A stretch of DNA of 64,000 nt. Origin: Carex sylvatica (taxonomy: Eukaryota; Streptophyta; Magnoliopsida; Poales; Cyperaceae). The position numbers and the translations under genes were made by a program. The stretch covers positions 124,001-188,000 of the forward strand of contig CAXKVR010000015.1 in the NCBI GenBank assembly GCA_964058845.1, written 5' to 3'. Under the pieces are notes generated by a model. That model was given only the letters and a program-made list of their open reading frames with translations, searched no databases and was not told the origin of the DNA. Each line of letters opens with the position of its first letter. Within the stretch, counting starts at the first letter, position 1. Shown in pieces: positions 6,291-64,000 of this stretch.

Positions 6291-7041
6291 TAGGGACGAA
6301 ATCAAGCAAATTTTAAAGACGAATTGAGCAAAACTCTAGGGACGAAATCAGCAAAATTCTCTGAGAGAGACTCAGAGGGTCGACGAGTAGTTGAAGGAGA
6401 GCGGCGTCGGAGCGCCTCTGCTGTCAACAATTTTTTTTCTCTCTCTCTCAATACCGGTTGTAAAGCCTCGGTATAGGTTAGCTCTATTCAATTTCTCATG
6501 ATATTTTTCTGCTCTTTTTTCCTCTAAAACATATGACCTCCGTTGGGGCAAACAACAAACTTGCTTCTACAAGGTCCAGCTAAGAAAGAAAAATTGTCTG
6601 GAAGATCAAAAGCTTTCGATTGATAACAATTAATGGATTTTGCTATGCCAATCAACACAACAACCAATTATCCACCTAAGGCAATCAAGAATTTTAGGTA
6701 GGAATAAGGAAGATATCAGAACCACAGTTATTTATTCTATCTAGTTTTTGTTCAGCATTTACACCAACGGCATTTTCTTGATGTGAAAATCCTTTGGTAG
6801 AAGAGCTAATTCAACTGTTCAATGTGAAGTTATCATAAAACCTGGCTCAATTCTCACCCTGTTTATAATAGTAATACTATATATAGGTTTGATTGCTCAG
6901 TTACTGTAAGAAACCAAGCCGGGCCTGAGTTTTGAGAACCATACCTTAACAATTGACATAGCCTGTTGTGAAATTCTTACATGGTGATGTTGTTCATTAA
7001 CTGAATTTGTCTTAAATTATTTTGAGCACAGTGTTTAAGCA
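6291..7041 (+). promoter_or_regulatory. Presumed leader of the F-box gene
   Basis: The stretch ahead of the F-box ATG holds a CT-rich tract (6437-6450) and two direct repeats of CTAGGGACGAAATCA (about 6290 and 6337). A clean 3' splice site, GAGCACAG, ends at 7032, nine bases before the ATG. This fits a 5'-UTR intron. The transcription start is not determined. Confidence 0.35.
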
Positions 7042-8229
7042 ATGTCGAAGAAGGAGTCTGACATGATAAGTCATTTCCCAGATGAAATTCTCCAACATAT
7101 TTTTTCCTTTCTAGGGACAAAAGAGGCCATGCAAATGAGCATACTGTCAAAGAGATGGGTCAACCTCTGGGCCACCTTACCTTCTCTCAACTTCAACCCA
7201 CATGACTTTGGAGCTCTCAATATTTTGGAGAAAAAATTGTTTGGTGCATACTTCAAAAGATTTGTTCAGGCCGTGCTATACCGTCGTGAAGCACCATTCT
7301 TGGACACATTCCTCATTAAATTTCCCAAAATATTAGACAGTTATACATGCTCTGATCTCGTTCGCAAATGTTTTAGCTATGCAATGAAGCACAATGCTCG
7401 AGTTTTCTCTATGCATGCTTCAATCCCCTCTCAAGAATTGATTGCATGCCTTTTCGCTTGGGAATCCACCGAGGAACTGTTCTTACAAACAAGTTTTTGG
7501 CATCCTCATATGCCAGAAGTAATACCAGTGATTGTCAATCTTCCCCGCATTAGAAGAATACATCTGCAAAATAGTATACTTGATAGTATAAGAATCTCCA
7601 GACTTTTCGCAGGGTGTCCAAAACTGGAAGAGCTATCATTGGAGAACTGCTTTGGGGAATTTTCATGCATCTTCAGCCAGAAGCTGAAGGACTTGTCTCT
7701 TCAGGGTTGCAGATCTAAAGTTCCACCAAATAACAAAACTGTTGATATAACATCAAGCCTCCATGGGAACACAGTAGAGTCAACAATTACTATTTTGTCT
7801 TCTGTGGTACAATTCATTTTCAAAACTCCAGGTGCATCTGCACTGAATAACCCTTCATCCTTTATGCAAAGCTTTATCCATGGCCTTGATTTAGACGACA
7901 ATCTTTGCTGCCTTTCTGGTGTTACAGTGCTCAAATTACATAGGCAAAATTTTAAGGTACATGTGCATCTTTGATTTCAAACCTGTGTAATTTTTGGTAC
8001 CATAAACCTTCTAAATATTATTTTGTTTTTCTCTCTCTTGTGGCATACTCAGATGTTGGAAACAGAGTTACAGAAGCTTGGAGAATTCCATTGCCTAATG
8101 GAATTGTGGCTTAGCAGATGGTGCATGATTTGTAATTTCAGTCCAGTTGCATTGTTCCTTCAAAAATCACCTAATATTCAGAAACTCATTTTATACAACT
8201 GCAGACGGCAATGTCGAAGGAAAAGATAG
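7042..8229 (+). CDS. F-box/LRR protein, 3' end frameshifted
   Basis: Substrate-recognition subunit of an SCF ubiquitin ligase by family. Exon 1 (7042-7956, 305 codons) starts MSKKESDM and carries an F-box at residues about 8-50 (FPDEILQHIFSFL...SILSKRWVNLW), then leucine-rich repeats of the plant F-box/LRR type (GCPKLEELSLENC near 195-208, LKDLSLQGC near 216-224). The donor AAG|GTACAT at 7957 and the acceptor ACTCAG at 8052 give phase-0 joining to exon 2 (8053-8229), which continues LFLQKSPNIQKLILYNC and then stops after an unnatural CRRQCRRKR tail. The expected FBD-like ending continues in another frame just downstream, so the predicted 363-residue product is shortened. It could still be translated. 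The start is the first in-frame ATG, after a 5'-UTR acceptor. Confidence 0.7.
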
Positions 8230-10410: not shown

Positions 10411-10670
10411 TACGAGAAACATGGCCAAGGATAAATTTCACTAAATAGACCCTAATCAGTCTAATCAGTCAATGATAAATTTCACCGACGACAGGGATCT
10501 GATTACATGGCAATGGGAGAACTCGGAGCTCTACAAGCTCGGTCTGCATATAAGTTTAAATAGCCGGGCTAAAATATTTGAACCGAATAATACAGCATAA
10601 AGACTAAAGCATCTCATTGAATAGAAAAAAATTAGAAGACTTATTATTCTAGATTTCTTTCACTGACAAT

Positions 10671-10784
10671 ACATTTATTTTCTACTAATTTTAGCAAATA
10701 TATAAAATAATCTTAGTTAGAAAAAAACTTGTATAAAACCAGGGATACATTTATTTTCTACTGGCAACACATTTATTTTCTACT
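10671..10784 (+). repeat. Three copies of a 16-mer at inversion junction
   Basis: ACATTTATTTTCTACT occurs at 10671-10686, 10747-10762 and 10769-10784, the last one touching the start of the ankyrin inverted-repeat arm. Between copies 1 and 2 lies ATAAAACCAGGGATA (10733-10747), identical to a piece of ankyrin exon 5 (opposite strand, about 13862-13877). This looks like templated filler DNA at a rearrangement breakpoint. Confidence 0.75.
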
Positions 10785-12164
10785 ATGTGGTGTCGTGACG
10801 CCTCTACTTCTTGTGGTGATGAACAATGAGAGTTGTAAATTCCATCCCTTGGATAATACCAGGGATATTCTAGAATCACTGATATTGATACAAATTTTCA
10901 CTTTCCTGACAACTATATTTAGGTGTTGTCTTTTTTGTTCCAAACGTTTATTATATAATCAAAACTTTGCTAGTCAGCTAAATCTTATTTATGATGCTGT
11001 AAAATTCAATCAAGGGTCTGTTACTAAATGAAATTCACTCAAGGGACAAATAAGATGATGTGTCATTGAAGCAATGTAATATTTGAAATTTTAATATCGT
11101 AGGCTGGGGCTGATGTAAACAAGATACAATTGTTAAGCTTGGCTTACCATTCCAAGGAGCTGATGGAGGTCTTGTTGGCAAATGGAGCCGACCCCAATCT
11201 ACCTAATGAAGTTAGTCACATTTTATTTTCATTGTAACTATTAAATATTATGTGATATGAAAAATAGGGTTTGAGGTAGGTTAATGGAATAAATAATTTC
11301 GAGACAGTTTTTAGAATAAAAGAATTAAATGTCCTTTTTGTGACAAAATTACATATCAGCATACTTGCATAGCTGCTGATTATATAGTTTTAAGTATAAC
11401 AAATGTGCAATGCCAATAGAAGTTGCAGCAATGAGAGGTAAAAGAGAGATTGTGAAAATTTTGTTTCCTAAAACCACCCGTATTTCATCGGTGCAAGATT
11501 GGAGTGTTGAGGGCTTGCTTACTAAGTTCGCAGCTGAAAATTTTGCTAGTGAGGTACATTTCTCCCTGTCTCTAAGTTGAGATCATTGTAATTTAAAAAA
11601 AAAATATTACATATTGAGCGACAATTTTGGGAACAATTAAAAATTAACAATATAGTTTTTCTATCTTAATTTTAATGGTTCTAGGAGAGACTTTTGGATC
11701 TGAGGCCGAGAATTACTAATATGTTACTCAATAACAAATATCTTGCGGCACTAGTTCTCTGTAACTATGTAAGTGAGAGTTCTGATGCGTTGTTAAAAAA
11801 ATATTTTATATTGAATCATTCTAAAAGTAATAAGCTTATTCTGTTTTAGGCAATAGAGGAAAACCCTGGAAATGTAGGTGACTACTATGCAAAGAGATTA
11901 TTTTGTTGGAACCATTTGGAAAATGCGGTTCACGAAAGATACTTTACCAATGCCACAACAGATGCCGATTTGATCGGCAAGCCAGAAATTATTCGCATGC
12001 TAGGCAAGGAGCACTTGTCACAATTGTAAGTTCTACTGATCATATGTTCTCCCTGTTGACTTGTTGCTCTTTAGAACTAGACAGTCACAATTTATTCTTT
12101 GTTTTTTTTATTTTTATTTTGCAGGGCTTCATTCCGTGATTATATCGGGATTTTGCTGGATTGA
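10783..12164 (+). pseudogene. 5'-truncated ankyrin copy (left arm)
   Basis: A mirror copy of exons 5-10 of the ankyrin gene at 12566-15225, on the plus strand. Segments: 10783-10887 (exon 5, first 12 bp missing), 11104-11211, 11395-11553, 11685-11768, 11850-12025, 12125-12164. All of these stay open in the parental frame, and the ending reads ASFRDYIGILLD. The donor after exon 5 is mutated: parental TTG|GTACAA is TTG|ATACAA here (10888-10889). Exons 1-4 and the promoter are absent. It is probably not translated but may be transcribed with its partner. The high identity suggests it is young. Confidence 0.85.
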
Positions 12165-12353
12165 GATTTGAATGCTAGTGAAACAATATTTCTGTTCTTA
12201 TTTTTGTCTGTGTTTAGAACTCTGCTGGCTATTCTTTTTTGTCTGTCTTTAGAACCATGCATCCCACCCTTGCGTGGAGTGATCGTATTGAAGAGAATAC
12301 AATTTGAATTGGACTAAACATTGCTTATCTGATATTTATTATTATTGTTTTTG
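10783..12353 (+). repeat. Left arm of 1.57-kb inverted repeat
   Basis: Reading this strand gives the reverse complement of 12377-13947. Position x pairs with 24730 minus x at both ends and at every exon edge tested, so there is no net length change over 1571 bp. The arms differ by scattered substitutions only. The spacer is 23 bp (12354-12376). Confidence 0.95.
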
Positions 12354-12376
12354 CATTATGAAACATTTCATTATGT
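12354..12376. other. Loop of the ankyrin palindrome
   Basis: 23-bp spacer containing CATTATG twice (12354-12360 and 12369-12375), between complementary TGTTTTTG and CAAAAACA arm ends. A transcript crossing it could fold into a hairpin of about 1.57 kb. Confidence 0.9.
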
Positions 12377-13947
12377 CAAAAACAATAATAATAAATATCA
12401 GATAAACAATGTTTAGTCCAATTCAAATTGTATTCTCTTCAATACGATCACTCCACGCAAGGGTGGGATGCATGGTTCTAAAGACAGACAAAAAAGAATA
12501 GCCAGCAGAGTTCTAAACACAGACAAAAATAAGAACAGAAATATTGTTTCACTAGCATTCAAATCTCAATCCAGCAAAATCCCGATATAATCACGGAATG
12601 AAGCCCTGCAAAATAAAAATAAAAAAAACAAAGAATTAATTGTGACTGTCTAGTTCTAAAGAGCAACAAGTCAACAGGGAGAACATATGATCAGTAGAAA
12701 TTACAATTGTGACAAGTGCTCCTTGCCTAGCATTCGAATAATTTCTGGCTTGCCGATCAAATCGGCATCTGTTGTGGCATTGGTAAAGTATCTTTCGTGA
12801 ACCGCATTTCCCAAATGGCTCCAACAAAATAATCTCTTTGCATAGTAGTCACCTACATTTCCAGGGTTTTCCTTTATTGCCTAAAACAGAATAAGCTTAT
12901 TACTTTTAAAATAATTCAATATAAAATATTTTTTTAACAACGCATCAGAACTCTCACTTACATAGTTATAGAGAACTAGTGCCGCAAGATATTTGTTATT
13001 GAGTAACATATTAGTAATTCTCAGCCTCAGATCCAAAAGTCTCTTCTAGAACCATCAAAATTAAGATAGAAAAACTATATTGTTAATTTTTAATTGTTCC
13101 CAAAATTGTCGCTCAATATGTAATTTTTTTTTTTTAAATTACAATGATCTCAACTTAGAGACAGGGAGAAATGTACCTCACTAGCAAAATTTTCAGCTGC
13201 GAACTTAGTAAGCAAGCCCTCAACACTCCAATCTTGCACCGATGAAATACGAGTGGTTTTAGGAAACAAAATTTTCACAATCTCTCTTTTACGCCTCATT
13301 GCTGCAACTTCTATTGGCATTGCACATTTGTTATACTTAAAACTATATAATCAGCAGCCATGCAAGTATGCTGATATGTAATTTTGTCACAAAAAGAACA
13401 TTTAATTTTTTTATTCTAAAAACTGTCTCGAAATTATTTATTCCATTAACCTACCTCAAACCCTATTTTCCATATCACCTAATATTTAATAGTTACAATG
13501 AAAATAAAATGTGACTAACTTCATTAGGTAGATTGGGGTCGGCTCCATTTGCCAACAAGACCTCCATCAGCTCCTTGGAATGGTAAGCCAAGCTTAACAA
13601 TTGTATCTTGTTTACATCAGCCCCAGCCTACGATATTAAAATTTCAAATATTACATTGCTTCAATAACACATCATCTTATTTGTCCCTTGAGTGAATTTC
13701 ATTTAGTAACAGACCCTTGATTGAATTTTACAGCATCATAAATAAGATTTGGCTGACTAGCAAAGTTTTGATTATATAATAAACGTTTAGAACAAAAAAG
13801 ACAACACCTAAATATAGTTATCAGGAAAGCGAAAATTTGTACCAATATCAGTGATTCTAGAATATCCCTGGTTTTATCCAAGGGATGAAATTTAGAACTC
13901 TCATTGTTCATCACCACAAGAAGTAGAGGCGTCACGACACCACATAG
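12377..13947 (-). repeat. Right arm of 1.57-kb inverted repeat
   Basis: The arm that is continuous with the full-length ankyrin gene. It ends inside exon 5 (exon 5 begins at 13959), so the duplication captured exon 5 to beyond the stop codon plus about 190 bp of 3' flank. Confidence 0.95.
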
Positions 13948-15225
13948 CAACTCATCAAGCTGTCAAAACAGTAGATACATTAGGTTTACATTCTTTAAAT
14001 TAGCACCAATTTTAGCTAATTTGAGGTAAGAATATGTCGAGCCTATTTGAAAACCTATTATAAATTAATTTTATGTTATTTATAGTAACTATTTAAGGGA
14101 ATAGAGAAATGGGAAAAAAAGATAATTACATTAGGTTGGTGGCCGAACAAAAAATTCATACAAGACGTGTGGCCTAGCAAAGCAGACAACAGCAAGGGTG
14201 ATTCTGTGGAGTCATGGTCATGAATTTCAGCACCTGATTTGATTAGCCTTTCAATGGCTCTATGTTTATCTAAAATAAAAAAAAGTCACTTAGTATTGAC
14301 CAAAATTAAAAAAAAAAAAAATTGGAAAGGAAATATACCTCCAATTACAGCATAGTGAATAGGAGTGAACCCATTGTTATCTTTGACATGGAGATCAGCA
14401 CCATATTTGATTAGATTCTCAATGACAAATGAATCGCCAAAGTAGGCAGCAAAACATAATGATGTTTTCCCTACGAATACAAAGTTGCTAATCACATCAT
14501 TAATTGAAAAATATTTAAGAACCCACTCAAATTAGTTGCCATTTTCCCTTCAGTAACAACCCACTGTAATTAGCTTGTCTACAATTAGGTAAAAAACCAG
14601 TATTCACCTTTTTCAACATTTCTACTAACAACCTTTTTGTTAGATTAGAAATAATCACAATTTCCATACATATTTACTACCAATCTAATTACAGAATTGT
14701 TTGGCACCTCACTCCAAATTGTCCCAGACCTGAGGTCCCGAGTCTCTATAAATTTTTCAATTTTGAAACTTGAAAACATATAATATAATTTTTTGAGTTT
14801 ATATCAGGAATAATTCCTTTTGAAGTAACCATCCCTGACATATCTACATCAAAATACTTTATGAAGAAAATATCTTACCTGAAAGATAAACACACTTAGC
14901 ATTCAACCCATAATCTTCAATGAGTAATACACAAATCTCAGCATTTTCATGCCGTGCTGCATGATAAAGAGAATTATTATCCTCTTTATCACACAATTCG
15001 CAAATCTTCTCACCCATCGCCAGTCTGTCGCTTTTACTTGTTATTACTTCCAATTTCTGTATAAAAGAAGAGTTTTTTTTTTTGGCAATGAACCCGTAAG
15101 TTATGAAAGAAGAGTTAAACAGGAAGAAAATATTAAAAACGAAAAAAAAAAATCAAAATAAAAAGCTTACTGAGAAGATCAGGGAGTTTGCCCGATCGAA
15201 CTGCTTCAACCATCGCTTTAGCCAT
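12566..15225 (-). CDS. Ankyrin-repeat protein, 10 exons
   Basis: Predicted 392-residue ankyrin-repeat protein. Exons (minus strand): 15225-15171, 15046-14879, 14470-14339, 14269-14130, 13959-13843, 13627-13520, 13335-13177, 13045-12962, 12880-12705, 12605-12566. Phases agree at every junction. It starts MAKAMVEAVRSGKLPDLL. About six ankyrin repeats follow: NSLYHAARHENAEICVLLIE, KTSLCFAAYFGDSFVIENLI, GFTPIHYAVIGG..., ELMEVLLANGADPN, MPIEVAAMRRKREIVKILF. The LFPxTxxIxxVxDWSVEGLL segment matches plant ankyrin proteins that usually continue into TPR repeats; here only a short divergent tail (AIEENPGN...YAKRLFCW) remains, ending GILLD. No signal peptide or membrane segment. The exon 2 acceptor (GGAAG at 15047) is the only AG that keeps the frame; the stronger TACAG 10 bp upstream would bring a stop. 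A solo LTR lies 46 bp upstream and half of the gene is mirrored in the adjacent arm. Molecular partner unknown. Confidence 0.75.
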
Positions 15226-18200
15226 GGTCAGATCTGTGCAAGAGAGTGTCGATTAGAAACAGCGAAAATATTGTCACACCCAAACCAGAAATTCTGGATT
15301 AAGGTGTGATCAACCTCGCCTCGTACTTAATTAATCATTAAGTACGCAAGGCTAAATAACAAAATAATCAAACAGCAGCGGAATCATAAGATAAAGTATC
15401 AGCATCAGACACATAAACAATAAATAAATATAAACATACATGTCATACATACAATCCGTCTCGGATCCATAAATAACATCCACTAATGAAAGGAGGTACA
15501 TGATCTAGCGAGATTCGTATATATAAATACAAGATTACGGATACTCGTAATCCTAATCAAAATCCTAACATAAAAGTAAATCAAACGGCGCGGCCATCAA
15601 GAACAGCTCCTAGCACCTCCTACTGCGGACCGCCAGACTCTATACCTAAAACCCACGAAACAACTTGTGGGTGAGCGACGAATCGCCCAGTATGTGACCC
15701 AGAATTATCCCCTCAGGGATCCTCTACAGTCAAAGCACTTTTAGTTATAAAATTAATAAACTTTAAAATATGCATATGTGTGAACCTATATTAATATCTA
15801 ATAAAATTTATAATACTTTTTAATGATGCCATGATGCGATTATTCTATTATGCCAACATGCAAAATAACCCAAAGTAAAATCAAAGTATAATATCGGATA
15901 GAAATCAAATTGGAATCCAGTACACCTCGCACTGTGTGCCCAAATATAATAATGATAATAATAATAATATGGTCAAGTATATCACCCCGTACTGTGCCAA
16001 TAGGATCAAAAGATCCGAATAATATAATCCAAGGACTGCGATCATAGGCGCAATGATACACGTTGCCTAGTGACATCGAGAATTGCCCACAAGTTATAAG
16101 CACGCTAGCCGATGGGTATATCAAAAATCATATGTGTCATCTCGCCTAACGATTCATCACCAAACATATCCAATAGAAGAAATTATACAATGCATGTCGT
16201 AAAATTGTTAATCTCTTCCCTTATGAGCAGGAGAGAACTCTACCGTCCGGCCAGACCAATAGGACCAGGGGGCTTGTCGACCCCCGTGCATCAAGGCTCG
16301 TCGACCTTATGCACTTGCACTTCATTCCTCAAGGTCTGCATTGGGCCTTGGGAACTTCCGTTTCTAGGCAAAGTAGCTCCTAATGTAGGGAAGGAATAAA
16401 TTCCCGAATTGTATCGTGTCACAGAACTCGAGATCGAAACTGCTCACGTCAAATAGTAAAATAATCAAAAATAATACATAATCAAACTTTATACATATAA
16501 TATAAATCCTAAGGCCATCTGAGAATCAAGTAACACTCATCTCAGCGGCTGTCGGGCCGTCCCATGCCAAGTGACACCGAGACGGAACGAAGTCACTCGG
16601 CACTGCTCAGCCCTCACCAATGCATGCATGTGCACGTAATATAGTAATAATATATTATCTTCCACGAGAAGAAGACAAACTAATAACCTAATATTCTAAT
16701 AATATACATATAATATTATTTACTTACTCTACTCCTAAAATACAGTAAATTCGAGTTTGTCAGGGTTTATGCAATTCTACCTACAGTGCAGAAAGGATAA
16801 CATGCTCTACAATTTTAATGCAACTACTTAAAAATAAAGTGCGGATGTCAGGTCAGATGGATCGACTGGTAAGAGTACACCCACGAAAAGAATAATTCAG
16901 ATATCCCACACCTGTGGGGGCTAGAGTCTCTGTGGCTAACCCTCAGCGAAATCAGCAGGATCCGCATATAAAACTGCGGGTCAACCGGATCAGTCCACGG
17001 ATCAGACTCGTATAAAATATGCTGATCTGAAATTTCGTAATTACAACTAATTAAAATATACGCTAAATTATTCTAACCCTCGTCCCATTTAATATGTTTA
17101 GTCGTATGTTCGATTAATTTGGTTTTATAAAAATTACCATTTCAGTCAGTAGGACTGAACCAGTTAGTTACATATTGATCATTTACTTTCATGTCATCGA
17201 GCTTAGCATTAATCTTAATTTATAATTTCGTGAGGTATTGATCATTTACTTTGATCTTAATTAATCAAATTTTAATCTAAACTAATTTATAATTTCAATA
17301 ATTTAATTTGAAGATATATTGCTTATAAATTTTCTAATATCAAAATATTTGCAAAAATAATTATTCGTGAGTGACAGTAAATTAAACGTGTTTTACTTAA
17401 TTACTCTATTTTAATTACCTATCTACTTTGATTTATTTTAAATGAACTACAATTAATTTTAGTCGTTCGCCATTAAGTTTCGAAAGCTAATTTCTGATTT
17501 AAAATTTTTAAATCCAATATTTTAATAAAATATACTAATGATGTATTTATTATAAATTTTGTGTTTTTAGTTTAATATATTTTAGTTGTTTTATATTTTT
17601 AGATGCATAATTCGGTTATAAAATTTTAGAAACAAAACCTTTAACTAATTTTCGTGTTTCTAATTAATTATTTCTAAGTCGCACAGTTCGTTATTTTATA
17701 ACGAATTTAATTTTACGTTTAATTCGTCGTTTCAAATCCAAGTATTAATTAATAATTTTCGTTGCTAATTAATTGTTATTTATTAATTAGCAATGAAGTT
17801 TTTATAAAAGTTTTAAAAAGTTTAAAAGTTTTAATTAAAACATGTTTATTAAACTTATATTTTATTTAATATGTGGGGTGTCTTAGTTTGGTTTGTTTCG
17901 GGATCATACAAGTGTCCAATTGGGTTATTTTAGTATCTGCTCAAATTATGTTATGAGCTATCATCAAGACATCAGGACCTGGACGGTATAATCATTTCTC
18001 AATTTAATTTAGATTTACATAAGCATCTAGTTTTATTCGGTTACATTATCAAAACCTAAGTTTTAAAATCCGTCAATTCCTTCCCATATTCTAAGATTGG
18101 GCCCATTTATTCATATATACATATCATGTCAAAATCCAAATTAATTCAAAGGCCCAATCAATTAATCAAATTCTTTCACAAACCCAATTCCTTAAGGCCC

Positions 18201-18385
18201 AAAACAATAAACATTTAATTTATTCAACCAATAGCACAACAGCAAGGTCACGGCCCCTTATCCCATATAAATTCACATTTTTCAGATTGGCCCTTAGTCA
18301 ATATAATTTTCACACAAGGGCATATATTTTACAATTCAGACCCCTACTATTTTTATTTTGCAATATGGTCCCTGCCAGATCAAAG

Positions 18386-18499
18386 GCTGGTATACACACA
18401 AAATCAGCACCATACCAGTAGTATACTGGGCTGGTACCAGTAGCTGGTATACACACAAAATCAGCACCATACCAGTAGTATACTGGGCTGGTACCACTG
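18386..18499 (+). repeat. 57-bp tandem repeat, two copies
   Basis: Two adjacent copies beginning GCTGGTATACACACAAAATC, at 18386 and 18443. It lies inside the solo LTR. Confidence 0.95.
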
Positions 18500-20013
18500 G
18501 TACCAGCACTTCGCAAGTCAGCACAACAACAACAGAGCCAAGCAACAAGCCAGGTCAGAAAAACAGAAAAGACAAGGCAACAGGTCAGAGGCAAAGCACA
18601 CAGCCAGCAAAACAGAACAAGGCGCAGGTCAAGGCAAAGCACCCAGCCAGCAAAACACACAAGCACACATGCACATATGCACATATACCAGACAGAACAG
18701 CACACCAGAAACAAAGAAAGGCAGCAGGTCAGAGAGCACGGCAACACAGCTACGTGCATTGGCTTGCCGGGAAAATCAACAACCCGAGCAAGCCACAATT
18801 TTAACGATTATAAATTGGCAAGGCACAAATCAATCAAATAAAATGAGGCATTTCGAAAGATTACCCGAATAAGCAAGGGAAGAGATGGAGATGAAAAACA
18901 GTCGGTTCCAAGCACGGCTCGCGTCTCGGCCGTCTAAATCGATTTTTCGCACCATTGAAATGCCAGTTTCTTAGAAATGCCTCAAGAACAACCAACAACA
19001 CAGATTCACAATCACAACAGAAAATCGAATTTAAAAGAGGGTTTTTCTCAACACATGAGATAGAGGCAGAAAGAGAGAGAGAGCAACCAACCAAAGGGGA
19101 GAGGGGAGTACATATACCCGGAAAAGGGAGAGAACCACACGTAACAGGGCCAGTCCGTGCGACTGACTGACCACAGAAAGACAGCGGCAACAGTCGCTGC
19201 TTCGCAATAAATTCACCCAAAAAGGGCGTGGGCGTGCGTACGGCACGGCAGAGAGGGAGAGGGGGAAATCAAAATCCTAGCCTCTTCTCCGGTTAGGAAG
19301 GAAAGGAGAGAGAGTTGGCGAAGGGGGCCCTATGCTCAACGGCAGAGAAGGAGAGAAAGAGAGGGATCTCTCTTGCGTGAAAGGGAGAAGGAGAAACGGG
19401 GAAGGGTAGAAAGGGGTCTGTGTGGCCCGTCGGCAAAGAAAGAAAGAGAGAAAAGGAGGGTTTGCTTGTGGACCCGAAATTCCTATTAAATGGAGTTAAT
19501 TATCAAATTTTCAAATGTTTGTAAGGATCAAAGGATGTGATTACTTCAGAATTTGTGCTAGGATAGATCAATGGTATAAATAATTTTGAAATTCAATATG
19601 AACTCATTTTAATTTAGAATCGGAATAATTTGATATCCATTTATATAATTATATATTCGATTAAATCTCTAAAATTCCGAAATGAACTAGTTTTATAAAT
19701 TCCATAATTTATTTATACGAATAATTTCATATAATTATACTCTTATTTAGAATTCAATTATTTATTTATTCATACAATCAAATTGTAAATTTCTTTTCTA
19801 AATGGTTCAACAGAACTTGTAACGACTTTTTTTAAAATTTACGAACTACTCGAATAATTACCCTTAATTTATAGAATTTATATTCTATATTCAAATTCTT
19901 ACTTAGTACACATTAAATTCATAACTCGGTTATATTTTGAAATTTTAGTATCACTTTAAAATTAATTAGACATAAATTTGAAATGTCATTTTATTAACCA
20001 AATTTTAAATTAG

Positions 20014-20113
<100 letters not shown>

Positions 20114-20158
20114 TTAGCAAGTAAATTATATTTTAAAATTTTGGAATATAACAAATAT

Positions 20159-46356: not shown

Positions 46357-46639
46357 TGCGATATTGAACAAATAGTCTGACTTTCAATCAAATGCACCGA
46401 AAAAATAATATGCCAACAGTATAAGCACCGGACACGTTTAAGACTATGCCACGCACCGACTATTCTCGACATCTTTTATTTTTGGTAAATAATGAAAGGG
46501 TATTGGCCGTCTGAACTTTCAGACAAAGGGTTGTGTAATAATTAATTTATCTTACAAGGTTTAAAGTGCAAAAGATCAATCACCTTAAATGGCAGAATAG
46601 CACTTTTTGTTAGCGTGTCATCCTTTTCCAATTCCATCA

Positions 46640-47463
46640 CACGTTCTCTCTCAACTCAAGGGTTTTAAGAACTCTCTCTCGAGAGTTTAGCAGAAGTCGC
46701 AGACCTCTCTTTCTCTCAAGATCAAGAAGGATTTTAGTAGAAGCCGCAAAAGAAAAGATTAGTGCTTTTGCCACTCTTTCTCTCCCAATCAAGGTTTAGA
46801 GGTTAGGTAAATTTCTCTCTCTCTATCCCTTATCAACGTTTCTGTCTGAATCTCGTCTAATAGTTACAGCTAATGATCCTTCTTTCTCGAAAATCTGTGG
46901 TCCTGTGAACCAATTTATATTTACCTGAATTCCCCTAAAATCAAAGAAAGCGCGACTTTTTTCTTGGCGCCAAATGTTAAATTTTCGTAATCAAAGCAAA
47001 AATAAATTCGCACTGACTAATTCCCCCCTCCTCTTTCGTTTGGAAAGAAAGTTTGCTATTTTAAGAAATTCTTTCTCTAGGTTTAATTTAAATAATAATA
47101 ACTTGGGGTTTGTCTAAATTTCTCTGTTTTTTATCTTTAGATTTAGCGCTTAAGCAATTTCTTTCTCTAAATGTAGAGGAACAGCCCCCCTATTTTTATT
47201 TACCCAAAAATGATGCCAGTTTACAGAATTGGGGTTTATGTAAACATTTTTAGTTCCAGTCTTTAAATGACGGTATTAATGTATTATAATAGTATGCAAA
47301 TAGGGTCTATGTGAACAAAGGTGTATGGGTATATCCAGGGGAGACTTCTCCCAGGATTTTTGTTTTTGTATTTTTCATTGTCGTAGCTCATGTTAACATT
47401 TCATTCTTTTTAGGATACTGAAATAGTTCTATGATTCAGATTTGCTAAAAAGGAGAGAAAACC
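46640..47463 (+). promoter_or_regulatory. Leader, leader intron and uORF of copy A
   Basis: A CT-rich untranslated first exon ends at the donor GTTAG|GTAAAT (46806/46807). The leader intron closes at TTCTTTTTAG (47413). The second leader segment contains a five-codon uORF, ATG ATT CAG ATT TGC TAA (47431-47448), 15 bases before the coding ATG, which has a strong context (AAACCATGGCT). Within the first exon a roughly 50-bp unit (AG...TAGCAGAAGTCGCA / TAGTAGAAGCCGCA) is repeated. Confidence 0.55.
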
Positions 47464-50400
47464 ATGGCTGAAAAAGGAGATGAAAGACAGCATACTAATC
47501 CTAGACTACGGGAGACTCTAGCTTCAACAGAAGGAGCGCATCGTCAGAAAGAGCCTGATCCTCTCTCATGGAACCGGTCTAGGAGGATGTCTTCTCCGGG
47601 CAGTAGCAGCAGGTTCATTATTTTTTTTTATGTTTTTATGTTGTGTTTGGTATGCTCTACCTTGTTTACTCACATGAAGCACTAACCAAGCTGTGCAATT
47701 ATTTTTGTTTTGGTAGAAATGTTTGAAGAAGTTCTACAAGCCGTGGAGGTGATTTGAGGCAACTTCTTAACAGAGGGATAAACTGGATAGAAGAGTCTCT
47801 ATCTCCTCTACACTGCATTCAAGATAGCTTTTATTACGAGTGTTTTTGCAAATTTCACCTTAGGTACTTCCGACGAAATAGAGAACCTGACTGCGATCTT
47901 TGGAGGGTTTCATGGAGCATTGACAAGAAGCAAGCTGCTACAAATCCTAGATGCTTGACTCTATGTTCTGGAAGAGAAGCTTTCCGACTTGACTGGTATG
48001 ATGCAATCATGAAATATCACCTTTTAAACAGTTGAGACATAATCTATTGGTACCATAACAGTCAGTAGTGAATGAATTTCAGTAAAAGTTGGTTACAACC
48101 TGAATTTTTAAGTCAGCACATGTAAGAACGATGCTGTGGAATGATATTTGGTGTAATGTAACAATTATTTGTTTACTTATTCTTTTGTATATCTACGAAA
48201 CGTCAAATATGTTGTCTAATGCAGGGGAGAAAGAGGAGAGTCCAGTGCAGGGAGACTGACATATCATCCTGTTTCAACCGATTCACATTTAAATTATCAT
48301 AACCGGTACTCTAATTAGTTGTTTTGTATTGTTTTGTTAGACTTCCACTCTTCCTTTTCTTCGTGTATTCTGTGTAGATGTTTTGTTTGATCTAGATTCA
48401 AGGTCAATGCTAAACCTCTGTATCAAATCTGTAATATTTTATTTATTTATTTACTATTATTCAAAGCAGGGCTGAAAGGAATCCAGGCAACGAGAGGCCC
48501 AGTGATTCGCTGAAAGAGGACTCTGCCCGTCACCTTTTACCTAATCGTGGCTCCAACAAGTATGTTGTTTCTCCTACAGATAGAACTTGCAACAAATTTA
48601 TTTATTACTAATTTGATTCTTGCGACAAACTTACTGATCAGCAGTCAGTAATTGTGAATACATATTTGCTTCAGATAATTCTTCTATTTACTCTAATATA
48701 AGGGTCCTTTAATTTACTCAAAATCACAATTTGTGCCCTCAGTATGGCAGCGCCCTTACAGATACCAATGACTAATGATAACCAATAAATGGACAAAGGA
48801 TTGATTAATGGCAATCAATAAATAAACTAATTTGTGTAATCGGTATCAATTGAATAATTAATTAGATTAGAAGAACAATACTTGCTGCTGGTTCAAATCC
48901 GTATTATCCTTATTATCAATTGAATAAATAATTAGATTAAAAGAATTATACTTGGATGTTATTCTTTGCTAGAATGTATATTAGTAATTTATTTTTAATT
49001 ATCTGATATATATTCATATCCGTATTCGTATTCATCCGATATCCTATACGAATTTGTATCCATTTAATATCTGATCTGTATCCGAGACTATCCGTAAATT
49101 ATAACGGATAACAGTTTGATCACTATCTGATCCATATCCGACTTTTTACACCCCTACATACCTGCCATATTGTGCACCTTAAATACTAATGCACTGGACA
49201 AATTATGAGGTCATGACTTTGTGAGCCTAAATTACTAATGTGAGCCTTATTCCAATAATACTATCTCTTTGATCATTGACAAAATCAATATACAGTTGGA
49301 GTGGTGAGTGTAGTGCATTTAGATCGAGGGACATACACCTTTCAATTGAGGACAAACGAAAAAGAACTGCACGGGACAGTAGCCGCTCACCCGAACACAA
49401 ATGGAGAAAAACTGGACCGCATCCTGACCGGTCAAGATGCAGTGAGCGTAGTGTTTCCCCAGAAAAGAGACCGAGAAATGCTGGATGGTGCCACGGTAGG
49501 TCCAGAGGGAGTGGCAGTCCTGATTTAAGTCATCTTAGCAGGTACATTACTATGCAAAAGTAACCCAAAAGCTTGTAAATTTTCACTGCAGTCGAATATA
49601 AGCATTTCAGTTGTGTAACAATTTTATACAGATACTTGGTTGTTTCGTTGGTCAGCAGTCAGTAATTGTGAATACATGTTTGCTTCAGATTATTTTTTTA
49701 TTTTCTCTAATATAGGGGTCCTTTAATTTCGACAGCTTTTGTCTCTAGTCTGACACCCATTTCTCTCTTTGGTTTTGTAAAAAATTGAATAGGAGTCCAC
49801 AAATGAGTCCTACTGATACCAAGAAAACAAAGGACGAAAGGGAGAAAAAATTAGGCTTTTCATCTCCCAAACAAACCTTGAAGCAAACAATGTCAGCTGA
49901 GCTGGGCCAATCTGATGCAGGGCAACCCATGCCTGAAAAAGGAGAAAAGAAGCAGCCTAACCCAAGGGTACGGGGCAACTTGGCTCAAGCTCAAGGAGTG
50001 CCACCTCAGAACAATGACGGGCGGGGCCGGTCTATTAATAATGATGAGCAGAGGAAATCTGATGGGTTGGGCACATCTACTGTTCAACCCGATCCTCAAC
50101 TATCAACCTCATCTAGTAGGACGTCTTCTGGCAAAATGAAAAGGTTTAGTTCACTTAGAATTTGTTTCTTTTATGGTTTTGTGGTATGTTATAAATTTTC
50201 TAAATTTTCGAGGAGCGCCATCTGTGGACAGTTTTTTTCTTCTAAAATTTTCCTTGAAAGTTCTGACACTGTAAGCCTTAGATTGGCAACTCTAGTATGA
50301 TACACATAGTGCGATGTATACTTAGCAGTTAGACATAATCTTGTAGAGCCAAAATTACCAGAGAAAAAAAAAAAAAACTGCTCTGATCTAAGCAAAAAAT

Positions 50401-51254
50401 ACTTGTTCTGACAGGTGGGGTCCGGCCTCTCCAAATGTGGATGGTTCCAGGTATAGGACTCTGTCTCAATGGTCTAAGGCGGCACAGGAATCTGATGGGT
50501 GGGGTCAAAACTATTCACCAATAAGAAAGTCACAATCAAGGTCTTTGACCTGTAGCTCTCAAGCCGCAGTCGGTACCAACAATAACAACAAGGAGTCTAA
50601 CCTTTCACCTTATCTTGGTCTGAAGTATCCATATTTTTATTCCCCGTTGGTAAGCACCTCTTGTTCTGGAGGAGCTGATGCAGATATGCAACCTATATCA
50701 TCCCCATATGCAATTGTGGGGACTGAACTCCCGAGGTTGTTTGCTGTCAATCCAGTATCCCCAACTCCTGAAGTCCCTAATCCGGGGCCATCACAACCAA
50801 ATCAAAATCTTGTTGTGGCAACTGGGACTGCAGCAGTAGAGAGAACAGATGCGATCGATAAGGACAGCCTCCGACGGGCACTGCTTGGTTTTGCGAAGCC
50901 AAAGCTGATTCCATTGTGGTCAAAAAAGCAGTTGGATTTTGCTAATTACAGGAAAATACTTGAAAAATTTGTGAATAATGTCACTCAATCCTTAGGAACT
51001 TGTGCCCCAAAGACCCGCGAGGACAGCTGCAAGTTCGTTCAAAAAGAAAATGACAGTCTGACCAAATACCTGCAGGTGTGTATTAGTTCTTCTCTCTTTT
51101 GATTAAGTAATTATTTTCCTTTTGCTTTGGATTTTTTTCCTTAAAAAAAGTTATGTCAAGTTTGCAGCTTGTTCTTCATATAATGTCTAATACTTTCCTT
51201 TTACAGATGTACCTGGGAAGGTTTGGGACCAAGGATGTCATGATGAATATTTAA
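47464..51254 (+). CDS. Arg/Ser-rich protein with C3H38-like C-terminus (copy A)
   Basis: Predicted 586 residues, eight exons: 47464-47612, 47729-47863, 48225-48305, 48470-48559, 49296-49541, 49793-50143, 50415-51075, 51207-51254. Every internal junction up to exon 7 is phase 2, so exons can be skipped in frame. Residues 1-50 (MAEKGDERQHTNPRLR...) recur as a related module at about 280-305 (MPEKGEKKQPNPRVRG). Residues 152-233 carry SPEHKWRKTGPHPDRSR and SVSPEKRPR, an RS-like region. About 503-586 is the helical C-terminal domain (ALLGFAKPKLIPLW, YRKILEKFVNNVTQSLG, LTKYLQMYLGRF) shared with plant C3H38/C3H55 proteins. No intact CCCH finger; exon 2 has only a Cys/His cluster (HCIQDSFYYECFCKFH). 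The exon 2 acceptor (TTTGAAG) is weak, because the stronger GGTAG 12 bp upstream gives a stop. A nuclear RNA-processing role is inferred. Confidence 0.72.
48640..48725 (+). repeat. Intron segment duplicated from downstream intron
   Basis: GGTCAGCAGTCAGTAATTG...TAAGGGTCCTTTAATTT repeats 49650-49735 of the same gene. It lies in the large intron after exon 4, before a decayed hAT-like stretch (48900-49165) that ends ACTTTTTACACCCCTA. Copy B lacks this whole block. Confidence 0.75.
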
Positions 51255-52389
51255 GAGACTTCTCAATGGTATGAAATTTTGTGTTTTTGTTATGATAATC
51301 AGTTTACATATGTTTCATACGCAATATGTTGGTATCATCTAAAGAAGGATATTGTTAAGGACTTTTTAATGGAGTTTAAAGTAGATTTGGTAGGTACAGA
51401 AGAGACAAAAAGGGAATATTTAAGACTTAACTGTTTTATCTGTTTGTTTATGTAGGTAATTTACGAGAGAAGGGACTGAAGAATAGTAAAAATTTATGGG
51501 CTTTTGTGCAAGATTTATATGTCAAGCATCACAATTGCTTAATTCTATGCTTTTCCAAATTAATTGGTTGAGCCGAGAGCTACATTCCAGGCTCCCTAAT
51601 TGTGTGATACTGATGCTATTCTTATTATATCTAAGCCTTTATTTATGTAGAACAATTTATTGCATATATCGCTGAACTGATAAATTTGTATATCAATTAT
51701 CTCATGTATTGTGTGCCAGCCATTACATGTCAGAACTCAGTACTGATTAATTTTTCTTTTTCTATAAATATTTGTTTCATAATTGTCCTTTCATATTGCT
51801 GTTTCGTCATTGTTGGTTCTTGTATAACCAGAATCAAGTCGTCTTTCTCTGGAGCCAATATATATATGTATAGATATTTTTTTTTTTTGTAATTTATGTA
51901 AAACATTTAACAAATTTGTCAATTTTCTCAGTTCAAATTTTTATGAGAAAAGTTTGTTTTAGGTCCCTAAATTTATTATGAACTTACGAAAGCAAGCTCT
52001 GTAAGCTGAAAATTGAAGCGAATATCTCTGCAAAATAGCAAGATAACTACATTATTTAGAAAACCATAAGATTTCACAGCAATTAAAGAAGAAAACATAT
52101 ATGTGTGAAAAAAATTTGCATGAAATTGTACTATTTAGTTCGGTCTTCAAAATTTGAAAACATTGCATAAAATTTGTAGTTCAAAATATAAAGAAATATA
52201 TCAAAGCATGCCTCATTTGTCGTTCTGAATAATATTGTACAAGATGTTCCCATATTCTCGTTTCAGAAGATAGAACGAATTTCACTGTTTTTTAGATATG
52301 AATTACAATTCTAATTTCACAATTCCCTTTCCGCCAATTTAATTCCCACTTGAGAATGTTTTGTGTATTAATTTTTTTATAGGTCAGAC

Positions 52390-58671: not shown

Positions 58672-58954
58672 TGCGATATTGAACAAATAGTCTGACTTTC
58701 AATCAAATGCACCGAAAAAATAATATGCCAACAGTATAAGCACCGGACACGTTTAAGACTATGCCACGCACCGACTATTCTCGACATCTTTTATTTTTGG
58801 TAAATAATGAAAGGGTATTGGCCGTCTGAACTTTCAGACAAAGGGTTGTGTAATAATTAATTTATCTTACAAGGTTTAAAGTGCAAAAGATCAATCACCT
58901 TAAATGGCAGAATAGCACTTTTTGTTAGCGTGTCATCCTTTTCCAATTCCATCA

Positions 58955-59778
58955 CACGTTCTCTCTCAACTCAAGGGTTTTAAGAACTCTCTCTCGAGAG
59001 TTTAGCAGAAGTCGCAGACCTCTCTTTCTCTCAAGATCAAGAAGGATTTTAGTAGAAGCCGCAAAAGAAAAGATTAGTGCTTTTGCCACTCTTTCTCTCC
59101 CAATCAAGGTTTAGAGGTTAGGTAAATTTCTCTCTCTCTATCCCTTATCAACGTTTCTGTCTGAATCTCGTCTAATAGTTACAGCTAATGATCCTTCTTT
59201 CTCGAAAATCTGTGGTCCTGTGAACCAATTTATATTTACCTGAATTCCCCTAAAATCAAAGAAAGCGCGACTTTTTTCTTGGCGCCAAATGTTAAATTTT
59301 CGTAATCAAAGCAAAAATAAATTCGCACTGACTAATTCCCCCCTCCTCTTTCGTTTGGAAAGAAAGTTTGCTATTTTAAGAAATTCTTTCCCTAGGTTTA
59401 ATTTAAATAATAATAACTTGGGGTTTGTCTAAATTTCTCTGTTTTTTATCTTTAGATTTAGCGCTTAAGCAATTTCTTTCTCTAAATGTAGAGGAACAGC
59501 CCCCCTATTTTTATTTACCCAAAAATGATGCCAGTTTACAGAATTGGGGTTTATGTAAACATTTTTAGTTCCAGTCTTTAAATGACGGTATTAATGTATT
59601 ATAATAGTATGCAAATAGGGTCTATGTGAACAAAGGTGTATGGGTATATCCAGGGGAGACTTCTCCCAGGATTTTTGTTTTTGTATTTTTCATTGTGGTA
59701 GCTCATGTTAACATTTCATTCTTTTTAGGATACTGAAATAGTTCTATGATTCAGATTTGCTAAAAAGGAGAGAAAACC
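58955..59778 (+). promoter_or_regulatory. Leader, leader intron and uORF of copy B
   Basis: Same structure as copy A at an offset of 12315: donor GTTAG|GTAAAT at 59121/59122, acceptor at 59728, five-codon uORF at 59746-59763. Since the whole leader was duplicated, B should be as expressible as A. Confidence 0.55.
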
Positions 59779-62769
59779 ATGGCTGAAGAAGGAGATGAAA
59801 GACAGCATACTAATCCTAGACTACGGGAGACTCTAGCTTCAACAGAAGGAGCGCATCGTCAGAAAGAACCTGATCCTCTCTCATGGAACCGGTCTAGGAG
59901 GATGTCTTCTCCGGGCAGTAGCAGCAGGTTCATTATTCTTTTTTATGTTTTTATGTTGTGTTTGGTATGCTCTACCTTGTTTACTCACATGAAGCACTAA
60001 CCAAGCTGTGCAATTATTTTTGTTTTGGTAGAAATGTTTGAAGAAGTTCTACAAGCCGTGGAGGTGATTTGAGGCAACTTCTTAACAGAGGGATAAACTG
60101 GATAGAAGAGTCTCTATCTCCTCTACACTGCATTCAAGATAGTTTTTATTACGAGTGTTTTTGCAAATTTCACCTTAGGTACTTCCGACGAAATAGAGAA
60201 CCTGACTGTGATCTTTGGAGGGTTTCATGGAGCATTGACAAGAAGCAAGCTGCTACAAATCCTAGATGCTTGACTCTATGTTCTGGAAGAGAAGCTTTCC
60301 GACTTGACTGGTATGATGCAATCATGAAATATCACCTTTTAAACAGTTGAGACATAATCTATTGGTACCATAACAGTCAGTAGTGAATGAATTTCAGTAA
60401 AAGTTGGTTACAACCTGAATTTTTAAGTCAGCACATGTAAGAACGATGCTGTGCAATGATATTTGGTGTAATGTAACAATTATTCGTTTACTTATTCTTT
60501 TGTATATCTACGAAACGTCAAATATGTTGTCTAATGCAGGGGAGAGAGAGGAGAGTCCAGTGCAGGGAGACTGACATATCATCCTATTTCAACTGATTCA
60601 CATTTAAATTATTATAACCGGTACTGACATATCATCCTGTTTCAACTTATTCACATTTAACTGATTCACATACCTGCCATATTGTGCACCTTAAATACTA
60701 ATGCACTGGACAAATTATGAGGTAATGACTTTGTGAGCCTAAATTACTAATGTGAGCCTTATTCCAATAATACTATTTCTTTGATCATTGACAAAATCAA
60801 TATACAGTTGGAGTGGTGAGTGTAGTGCATTTAGATCGAGGGACATACACCTTTCAATTGACGACAAACGAAAAAGAACTGCACGGGACAGTAGCCGCTC
60901 ACCCGAACACAAATGGAGAAAAACTGGACCGCATCCTGACCGGTCAAGATGCAGTGAGCGTAGTGTTTCCCCAGAAAAGAGACCGAGAAATGCTGGATGG
61001 TGCCACGGTAGGTCCAGAGGGAGTGGCAGTCCTGATTTAAGTCATCTTAGCAGGTACATTACTATGCAAAAGTAACCCAAAAGCTTGTAAATTTTCACTG
61101 CAGTCGAATATAAGCATTTCAGTTGTGTAACAATTTTATACAGATACTTGGTTGTTTCGTTGGTCAGCAGTCAGTAATTGTGAATACATGTTTGCTTCAG
61201 ATTATTTTTTTATTTTCTCTAATATAGGGGGGGTCCTTTAATTTCGACAGCTTTTGTCTCTAGTCTAACACCCATTTCTCTCTTTGGTTTTGTAAAAAAT
61301 TGAATAGGAGTCCACAAATGAGTCCTACTGATACCAAGAAAACAAAGGACGAAAGGGAGAAAAAATTAGGCTTTTCATCTCCCAAACAAACCTTGAAGCA
61401 AACAATGTCAGCTGAGCTGGGCCAATCTGATGCAGGGCAACCCATGCCTGAAAAAGGAGAAAAGAAGCAGCCTAACCCAAGGGTACGGGGCAACTTGGCT
61501 CAAGCTCAAGGAGTGCCATCTCAGAACAATGACGGGCGGGGCCGGTCTATTAATAATGATGAGCAGAGGAAATCTGATGGGTTGGGCACATCTACTGTTC
61601 AACCCGATCCTCAACTATCAACCTCATCTAGTAGGACGTCTTCTGGCAAAATGAAAAGGTTTAGTTCACTTAGAATTTGTTTCTTTTATGGTTTTGTGGT
61701 ATGTTATAAATTTTCTAAATTTTCGAGGAGCGCCATCTGTGGACGGCTTTTTTCTTCTAAAATTTTCCTTGAAAGTTCTGACACTGTAAGTCTTAGATTG
61801 GCAACTCTAGTATGATACACATAGTGCGATGTATACTTAGCAGTGAGACATAATCTTGTAGAGCCAAAATTACCAGAGAAAAAAAAAAAAAACTGCTCTG
61901 ATCTAAGCAAAAAATACTTGTTCTGACAGGTGGGGTCCGGCCTCTCCAAATGTGGATGGTTCCAGGTATAGGACTCTGTCTCAATGGTCTAAGGCGGCAC
62001 AGGAATCTGATGGGTGGGGTCAAAACTATTCACCAATAAGAAAGTCACAATCAAGGTCTTTGACCCGTAGCTCTCAAGCCGCAGTCGGTACCAACAATAA
62101 CAACAAGGAGTCTAACCTTTCACCTTATCTTGGTCTGAAGTATCCATATTTTTATTCCCCGTTGGTAAGCACCTCTTGTTCTGGAGGAGCTGATGCAGAT
62201 ATGCAACCTATATCATCCCCATATGCAATTGTGGGGACTGAACTCCCGAGGTTGTTTGCTGTCAATCCAGTATCCCCAACTCCTGACGTCTCTAATCTGG
62301 GGCCATCACAACCAAATCAAAATCTTGTTGTGGCAACTGGAACTGCAGCAGTAGAGAGAACAGATGCGATCGATAAGGACAGCCTCCGACGGGCACTGCT
62401 TGGTTTTGCGAAGCCAAAGCTGATTCCATTGTGGTCAAAAAAGCAGTTGGATTTTGCTAATTACAGGCAAATACTTGAAAAATTTGTGAATAATGTCACT
62501 CAATCCTTGGGAACTTGTGCCCCAAAGACCCGCGAGGACAGCTGCAAGTTCGTTCAAAAAGAAAATGACAGTCTGACCAAATACCTGCAGGTGTGTATTA
62601 GTTCTTCTCTCTTTTGATTAAGTAATTATTTTCCTTTTGCTTTGGATTTTTTTCCTTAAAAGAAGTTATGTCAAGTTTGCAGCTTGTTCTTCATATAATG
62701 TCTAATACTTTCCTTTTACAGATGTACCTGGGAAGGTTTGGGACCAAGGATGTCATGATGAACATTTAA
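59779..62769 (+). CDS. Arg/Ser-rich protein with C3H38-like C-terminus (copy B)
   Basis: Predicted 556 residues, seven exons: 59779-59927, 60044-60178, 60540-60620, 60808-61053, 61308-61658, 61930-62590, 62722-62769. It differs from copy A by a few substitutions (MAEEGDE start, P to S in GVPSQ, D for E in PTPDV) and by loss of exon 4 (30 codons). The loss is an exact exon removal in phase terms, so LNYYNR joins WSGECSAF in frame. At the deletion point the end of exon 3 and the first bases of the intron are partly repeated (GACATATCATCCTxTTTCAAC at 60573 and 60625). Domains as in A: N-terminal NPRLR module, RS-like basic middle, second NPRVR module, C-terminal helical domain ending YLGRFGTKDVMMNI. 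All remaining splice sites are intact. Confidence 0.72.
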
Positions 62770-64000
62770 GAGACTTTTCAATGGTATGAAATTTTGTGTT
62801 TTTGTTATGATAATCAGTTTACATATGTTTCATACGCAATATGTTGATATCATCTAAAGAAGGATATTGTTAAGGACTTTTTAATGGAGTTTAAAGTAGA
62901 TTTGGTAGGTACAGAAGAGGCAAAAAGGGAATATTTAAGACTTAACTGTTTTATCTGTTTGTTTATGTAGGTAATTTACGAGAGAAGGGACTGAAGAATA
63001 GTAAAAATTTATGGGCTTTTGTGCAAGATTTATATGTCGAGCATCACAATTGCTTAATTCTATGCTTTTCCAAATTAATTGGTTGAGCCGAGAGCTCCAT
63101 TCCAGGCTCCCTAATTGTGTGATACTGATGCTATTCTTATTATATCTAAGCCTTTATTTATGTAGAACAATTTATTGCATATATCGCTGAACTGATAAAT
63201 TTGTATATCAATTATCTCATGTCTTGTGTGCCAGCCATTACATATCAGAACTCAGTACTGATTAATTTTTCTTTTTCTATAAATATTTGTTTCATAATTG
63301 TCCTTTCATATTGTTGTTTCGTCATTGTTGGTTCTTGTATAACCAGAATCAAGTCGTCTTTCTCTGGATTTTGTCCCGAAACGAATTTGGCTTCATATTT
63401 GATTCTTACGTCTGACATCTGCGTTTAACCTTAAATTAATAACAATCTTATTCATGGTATGATCTTAATCTCTTATAAATATATAGCTAAATAGCTTGAG
63501 AAATCCACATTGATGATGATGAAATCTACACCTTCTTAAACTGTCTCCTAATTGTAATCCTTCCTGACCAGCGATCCAAATAATGGAATATACTTACAAA
63601 GCATCCTTTATTATACTTATAATTTTTGGAACAATTTGAAAAGGTGACCCTTGCAATTCATGTTTCTGAAGCCAATATATATATATATATATATTTTTTT
63701 TTTGCAACTTATGAAAAACATTTAACAAATTTGTCAATTTTCTCAGTTCAAATTTTTATTAGAAAAGTTTGTTTTAGGTCCCTAAATTTATTATGAACTT
63801 ACGAAAGCAAGCTCTGTAGGCTGAAAATTAAAGCGAATTGCTCTGCAAAATAAGCAAGATAACTACATTATTTAGAAAATCATAAGATTTCACAGCAATT
63901 AAAGAAGAAAACATATATGTGTGAAAAAAAATTGCATGAAATTGTACTATTTAGTTCGGTCTTCAAAATTTGGAAACATTGCATAAAATTTGTAGTTCAA
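62770..64000 (+). other. 3' flank of copy B
   Basis: No further gene. It preserves about 300 bp (about 63367-63670) that copy A lost, and this same block is what matches the relic at 5640-5930. B therefore keeps the older flank. Confidence 0.6.

Follow-up and report, generated by a model that had tools for sequence, protein, structure and literature searches.

A 64,000-nucleotide stretch of Carex sylvatica contig CAXKVR010000015.1 (positions 124,001 to 188,000 of the forward strand, hereafter the window) contains a near-perfect palindrome of 3165 bp, in which the 3′ half of a minus-strand ankyrin-repeat gene is mirrored. We take this palindrome to be real, and its birth appears to be well readable. 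We think it probable that it arose by foldback-primed inverted duplication of a plant ankyrin gene that was already decaying, and that it is now a latent hairpin-RNA locus. Coordinates are those of the window unless they are prefixed C15, which denotes the coordinate system of the whole contig (the window being C15:124001-188000); the assembly searched comprises 64 Mb in 950 contigs.

The palindrome and the gene it mirrors

An inverted-repeat search returned two arms of 1571 bp each, 98% complementary and 23 nt apart:

10783-12353, plus strand: left arm, a mirror of part of exon 4 through exon 8 plus the 3′ flank of the ankyrin gene, without exons 1-3
12377-13947, minus strand: right arm, which runs on into exons 1-3 of the ankyrin gene
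12354-12376, no strand: palindrome centre, an imperfect inverted repeat CATTATGAAA-CA-TTTCATTATGT with about 2 unpaired bases (12364-12365)

Compared letter by letter, the arms differ by 31 substitutions and by no insertion or deletion (indel), so that the pairing of position x with 24730-x is valid along their entire length; BLAST aligns the full 3165 bp to itself as a single self-complementary match that crosses the spacer with two gap openings. A sequence-only reading of the window had proposed arms of 1571 bp without net length change, paired by this same rule, and had seen in them the 3′ half of an ankyrin gene on the minus strand, duplicated in inverted orientation; the arm comparison and the content of the arms agree with it on both counts. 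Its 23-bp spacer stands as the distance between the arms, but these bases are almost self-pairing, and the unpaired core is therefore only about 2 nt (12364-12365).

We scanned a stitched 198 kb of C15 for inverted pairs of at least 150 bp lying less than 3 kb apart and for self-palindromes of at least 100 bp. Ten inverted repeats passed; the nine besides the palindrome measure 160-489 bp at 74-89% identity, and one of these belongs to a dispersed family that resembles miniature inverted-repeat transposable elements (MITEs). A chance origin of the palindrome is ruled out by the length of its arms, and no second two-arm copy occurs among the 21 places listed as matches to the right arm.

The exon edges of the gene, read by eye from a three-frame translation, and the site of a lesion within it are as follows:

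12701-15017, minus strand: ankyrin-repeat gene with a degenerate TPR-like end (ATG at 15017, stop at 12703-12701; Pfam Ank_2, E 1.4e-25)
15017-14879, 14470-14339, 14269-14130, 13959-13843 and 13627-13520, minus strand: exons 1-5
up to 13177 (acceptor lost), 13045-12962 and 12880-12701, minus strand: exons 6-8
13312-13319, minus strand: TGCCAATA, which the undeleted copies carry as a direct repeat; 50 bp were lost here, among them the exon 6 acceptor (TTGCAG)

Gene sequence in the arms keeps its native order of introns and exons. The right arm begins at the 13th base of exon 4, and not, as had been suggested, at an exon edge; it reaches 324 bases beyond the stop codon. Nor is the gene to which it belongs intact, as it had seemed in the earlier reading. 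The 50-bp deletion, seen by alignment with the 58-kb paralog, two array copies and the 204-kb paralog described below (all undeleted), is found in both arms and has removed the exon 6 splice acceptor from each, which rules out an intact parent gene; the Carex proteins P0001 and P0003 read E-SGRLPIEV uninterrupted over the deletion junction. In the left arm the exon 4 splice donor is also lost (GT to AT at 10888). We regard the gene as probably a pseudogene or the maker of a truncated protein. Since the deletion is common to both arms, it most simply predates the palindrome; the gene would, on the simplest order of events, have been damaged first and then mirrored. In a protein search with a composite ankyrin query the best matches were Carex proteins, the top match having 55% identity over 99% of the query, and by eye the C15 paralog at 204-208 kb looks even closer to these proteins than the window gene does.

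An insertion of about 4.9 kb (15272-20153), which the 58-kb and array copies are without, lies some 255 bp upstream of the ankyrin ATG. Its TG...CA ends, the AATAT read by eye on either side and tens of partial genome matches suggest a solo or non-autonomous long terminal repeat (LTR) element.

The genome matches to the right arm, 21 among those listed (both arms included, with scores given for the best candidates only), all lie on C15 and C227. The copy at C15:58142 (58.1-59.3 kb, the 58-kb paralog) consists of a single arm and is without arm positions up to about 516; the left arm is 95.2% and the right arm 94.2% identical to it. A tandem array at C15:102151-113262 (102-113 kb) has five units, each about 2214 bp long, in which an ankyrin gene truncated inside exon 6 is joined to upstream flank. 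These units carry the first 645 bp of the arm at 97-98% identity and are 99.5-99.8% identical to one another in register, a likeness that makes the array probably recent. More distant paralogs lie at C15 204-207 kb, at C15 222 kb and on C227. In the 204-kb paralog, 2 bp inserted into exon 6 shift the frame and lead to a stop, and the three closest relatives checked, namely the 58-kb copy, the array and the 204-kb paralog, are all broken.

Turn point, outer junction and origin

The 3′ flank of the 58-kb paralog reads TTTTTG-CATTATGAAA-CA-TTTCATAATG and then passes into sequence unrelated to the arm. At this single-arm locus a perfect 10-bp inverted repeat with a 2-nt loop stands exactly at the point where the palindrome turns. 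Perfect 10-bp inverted repeats with loops of 0-6 nt number 113 in 198 kb, or 0.57 per kb, and at that density we estimate the chance of one falling within a few bases of the centre at roughly 0.002. Among the 93 places listed (the best 40 of 1176 candidates), no other matches the first 207 bp of flank downstream of the paralog; a MITE-like hairpin family comes after these 207 bp. A MITE-like hairpin element of about 360 bp, for which dozens of genome places are listed, occupies C15:57562-57926.

On the outer left side of the palindrome, further copies of the flanking unit locate the breakpoint:

10416-10737, plus strand: last part of the flanking unit on the left, which has four further homologous copies on the contig
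10738-10782, no strand: filler at the outer left breakpoint, 45 bp, mostly tiled by local matches
10733-10747: filler piece 1, ATAAAACCAGGGATA, partly flank, with a 15-bp match in the right arm
10745-10762 (18 bp) and 10769-10785 (17 bp): filler pieces 2 and 3, both matching left flank 10669-10687
10669-10687, plus strand: left-flank template of filler pieces 2 and 3

The flank-unit copies end at C15:41346, 53436, 80661 and 92722 (the match of the first begins only at 10486). All four agree with the window to about 10737 and then share one continuation that the window is without. Three local matches tile 10733-10785 apart from 6 unmatched nt (10763-10768); in the left arm, where an A has since become T, filler piece 1 matches over 10 bp only. 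The homologous points lie about 4.7 kb apart at the 53-58 kb locus, and this 4.7 kb is missing from the window.

We propose that a double-strand break downstream of the ankyrin gene would have left an end that was resected, and that the 3′ end may then have snapped back onto the 10-bp inverted repeat, priming about 1.57 kb of synthesis. Microhomology-mediated joining of a polymerase-theta-like kind would then have linked the copied end to the far side, with about 4.7 kb replaced, and replication of the hairpin would have fixed the palindrome. The arms are mutual copies, and the short inverted repeat at which they meet has a small loop, as foldback predicts; the joined end has both a filler templated mostly from nearby sequence and a deletion, as would be expected of microhomology (polymerase-theta-like) end joining. 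In earlier work, inverted repeats of 5-9 bp spaced 3-12 bp apart are described as priming foldback in yeast deficient in Mre11 or Sae2 (PMC7999016), short foldbacks, mostly of 5-34 bp, as being followed by end-joining capture of the other end (PMC11724301), and templated fillers as marks of polymerase-theta joining in Arabidopsis (PMC10923293). The yeast and mammalian palindromes described there share with ours a short inverted repeat at the centre of a large palindrome (PMC7999016) and an apparent end-joining capture of the second end (PMC11724301), but they were induced or arose in repair mutants, whereas ours occurs naturally in a plant, measures 3.2 kb and has a 2-nt loop. Among the papers listed by a literature search there was no natural plant palindrome of like sort by title or abstract opening, which is no proof that none is in print.

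Several observations weigh against a foldback origin. The single-arm state with the 10-bp repeat is seen in one paralog only, and the 58-kb single arm could in principle be the deletion product of an older palindrome. The loop is CA, as in the paralog, when it is read from the left arm and TG when it is read from the gene (right) arm, and the bases beside the loop also fit the paralog better from the left arm than from the gene arm. A simple foldback predicts that the gene arm should be the closer to the paralog; the reverse is seen, so that an arm-arm crossover or some other order of events is needed. A crossover between the arms that flipped the middle of the palindrome would explain the orientation of the loop. 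In yeast, the cases cited above depended on repair mutants, and their spacers measured 3-12 bp, against a loop of 2 nt here. Lastly, about 18% of 300 random 45-mers from the contig also have a local match of at least 14 bp, and the case for a templated filler therefore depends on the three tiling matches together and on no single one.

Template switching at a replication fork between inverted microhomologies, of the type called microhomology-mediated break-induced replication or fork stalling and template switching (MMBIR/FoSTeS), would produce a palindrome with neither break nor snap-back. The filler is itself a chain of template switches, and the centre, when read from the left arm, would fit a switch at the CA microhomology. 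The turn nevertheless coincides exactly with the paralog's 10-bp hairpin, which favours self-priming of one strand, and a fork model has no need of the loss of about 4.7 kb; we consider fork switching unlikely. An artefact of library or assembly, in which a palindrome is simulated by a chimeric foldback read or by the head-to-head joining of two haplotypes, has to be weighed in an assembly of 950 contigs, and foldback chimeras are a known fault of long reads. Yet the two copies are not identical, for they differ by 31 substitutions, of which 19 are derived in the right arm and 12 in the left, and there are no indels, of which raw-read errors would be expected to yield some. The largely templated filler, together with the sharp swap relative to the four unit copies, would require a second, independent artefact, and we find this explanation very improbable.

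A transposon, either a foldback/MITE-type element or a Pack-type element that had captured the gene, might be entertained in a region where MITE-like hairpins are frequent (the family at C15:57.56-57.93 kb, with dozens of places listed). We rejected it, as an origin whose probability is close to negligible, on the native intron-exon order of the gene sequence in the arms and on the absence of a further paired copy among the 21 places listed; terminal repeats and a target duplication were also not seen in the flanks, which were judged by eye with no formal test.

Substitutions between the arms

With the array as outgroup as far as arm position 655 and the 58-kb copy from there on, 19 of the 31 derived changes fall to the right arm and 12 to the left. 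All but one of the 23 transitions (22/23) run from C:G to T:A, and, counted over both arms, the minus strand carries 17 of these 22 as C to T (p = 0.009, allowing for base content; for single arms, right p = 0.055 and left p = 0.15). In the same gene outside the palindrome a strand lean of 12 to 3 was obtained by majority rule of three copies, a polarisation not secured by an outgroup. The lean is therefore not specific to the palindrome, and we rejected the strand bias as proof of read-through transcription. C:G to T:A changes stand to A:T to G:C changes as 15 to 5 in the gene outside the palindrome and as 22 to 1 in the arms. A flank count of 10 to 1 was discarded, two of the three copies having no differences there, so that the changes are not polarisable; the remaining flank counts were small and were left unused, as were the pairwise counts for the 58-kb copy, which is affected by a deletion and misalignment below arm position 517.

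Derived C-to-T changes are not enriched at CG or CHG (2 of the 22 are in CG, 2 in CHG and 18 in CHH). These contexts are close to the make-up of the left-arm cytosines, which on both strands number 44 CG, 80 CHG and 403 CHH out of 527, and hence no CG or CHG methylation scar is visible. Methylation-driven mutation was accordingly rejected as proof of silencing.

The paralog alignments contain gaps as well as substitutions: 6 gaps to 17 substitutions in the 58-kb copy on the side of exons 1-3, 7 to 33 between the 58-kb copy and the right arm, and 10 to 31 in an array unit. Against these BLAST pieces, the 0 indels and 31 substitutions of the arms give Fisher p values of 0.004, 0.016 and 0.004, respectively. 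No uneven spread of mismatches along the arm was found (Kolmogorov-Smirnov p = 0.47).

Plant sequences accumulate substitutions at about 7e-9 per site and year, a rate at which the 1.97% divergence of the arms would correspond to about 1.4 million years; conversion between the arms or a burst of mutation would make this date meaningless. One such burst can be imagined, in which most of the 31 differences came from cytosine deamination on one strand while the new palindrome was single-stranded. The grounds for it are the 0 indels, the 22 of 23 transitions from C:G to T:A and the 17 of 22 minus-strand C-to-T changes. We think it improbable. If it were true, the palindrome would be much younger than a divergence of 2% suggests, and would record a single-stranded intermediate of foldback repair.

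Predicted hairpin RNA and a possible siRNA role

The sequence-only reading had held that RNA transcribed across the palindrome could fold into a hairpin, and in a fold prediction minus-strand RNA does pair from end to end, with 1566 of 1566 pairs on the palindrome diagonal and a predicted energy of about -2716 kcal/mol, compared with -359 for one arm. Past the stop of the gene, the first AATAAA is met at 12340, some 25 nt after the palindrome centre, and transcription would have to run through this signal to give the full 1.57-kb hairpin RNA. With less assurance than for the origin of the palindrome, we suggest that transcription across it might supply double-stranded RNA for Dicer-like (DCL) enzymes, with possible action on the 58-kb paralog and the five-copy array.

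It is possible, although we lean against it, that the palindrome is an active inverted-repeat locus for small interfering RNA (siRNA) of the PAI or Mu killer type, whose read-through hairpin silences or methylates the parent gene and its paralogs; such a role would be compatible with a foldback origin. The near-perfect stem is a long repeat capable of forming double-stranded RNA, 1021 of its 1551 21-nt windows being perfectly paired, and long exact stretches shared with the 58-kb paralog (579 of 1551 arm 21-mers) and with the array (510 of 1551) make these copies sequence-identical candidates for action in trans. The tail-to-tail layout is that of PAI1-PAI4, as passages of one account present it (PMC3431836). 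Against an active locus stand the AATAAA some 25 nt past the centre, the insertion of about 4.9 kb in the 5′ region of the gene, the broken state of the relatives checked (58-kb copy, array and 204-kb paralog) and the want of a CG or CHG mutation scar among the derived C-to-T changes. Exact 21-mers are also few elsewhere: of 1551, the 222-kb copy has 0, C227 has 8, the 204-kb paralog has 18 and the gene's own exons 1-3 have 0. We hold siRNA production at the palindrome to be a tentative possibility and a selected silencing function to be quite improbable. An siRNA role is plausible but unproven, and the best-matching copies are relics. Among the papers listed by a literature search we found no sedge small RNA paper, which is no proof that none is in print.

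Known systems offer instructive parallels. PAI1-PAI4 of Arabidopsis Ws is described, in the passages just cited, as a tail-to-tail inverted repeat of two genes, with reported methylation and action in trans (PMC3431836); the present locus likewise sets inverted copies of plant gene sequence tail to tail and has relatives elsewhere in its genome. Unlike PAI, it mirrors only the 3′ half of a gene already broken and has about 2 unpaired bases at its centre. In maize, according to the same passages, the inverted duplication of a partial element known as Mu killer yields a 2.4-kb hairpin RNA that is processed to siRNAs (PMC3431836). Mu killer targets a transposon, whereas the source here is an ankyrin gene, and dicing is only a possibility that the sequence raises. 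Rice Lgc1 is a tail-to-tail gene repeat that formed with a deletion between the copies and makes double-stranded RNA by read-through; it joins two neighbouring genes, whereas here the end of one gene is mirrored, with mostly templated filler.

Other features lie nearby. Upstream of the left arm and pointing toward it is an F-box open frame of FBD/leucine-rich repeat (LRR) type (7039-7974, plus strand; Pfam F-box, E 2.1e-8). Farther along, the window has a direct duplication spanning 46357-52184 and 58672-64000, in three pieces (46357-48310 and 58672-60625 at 99.3%, 49156-51853 and 60668-63368 at 98.9%, 51848-52184 and 63665-64000 at 95.0%); diverged and inverted pieces lie near 27-30 kb and near 53-56 kb.

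Inverted duplications are thought to seed plant siRNA loci and some microRNA genes, and the event of their birth is seldom readable. In this sedge the paralogs reveal a probable turn point in the 10-bp hairpin, a far junction in the mostly templated filler and a likely order of events. The palindrome would represent a natural plant case of apparent foldback priming, and it may serve as a locus at which to study the step from palindrome to source of small RNA.

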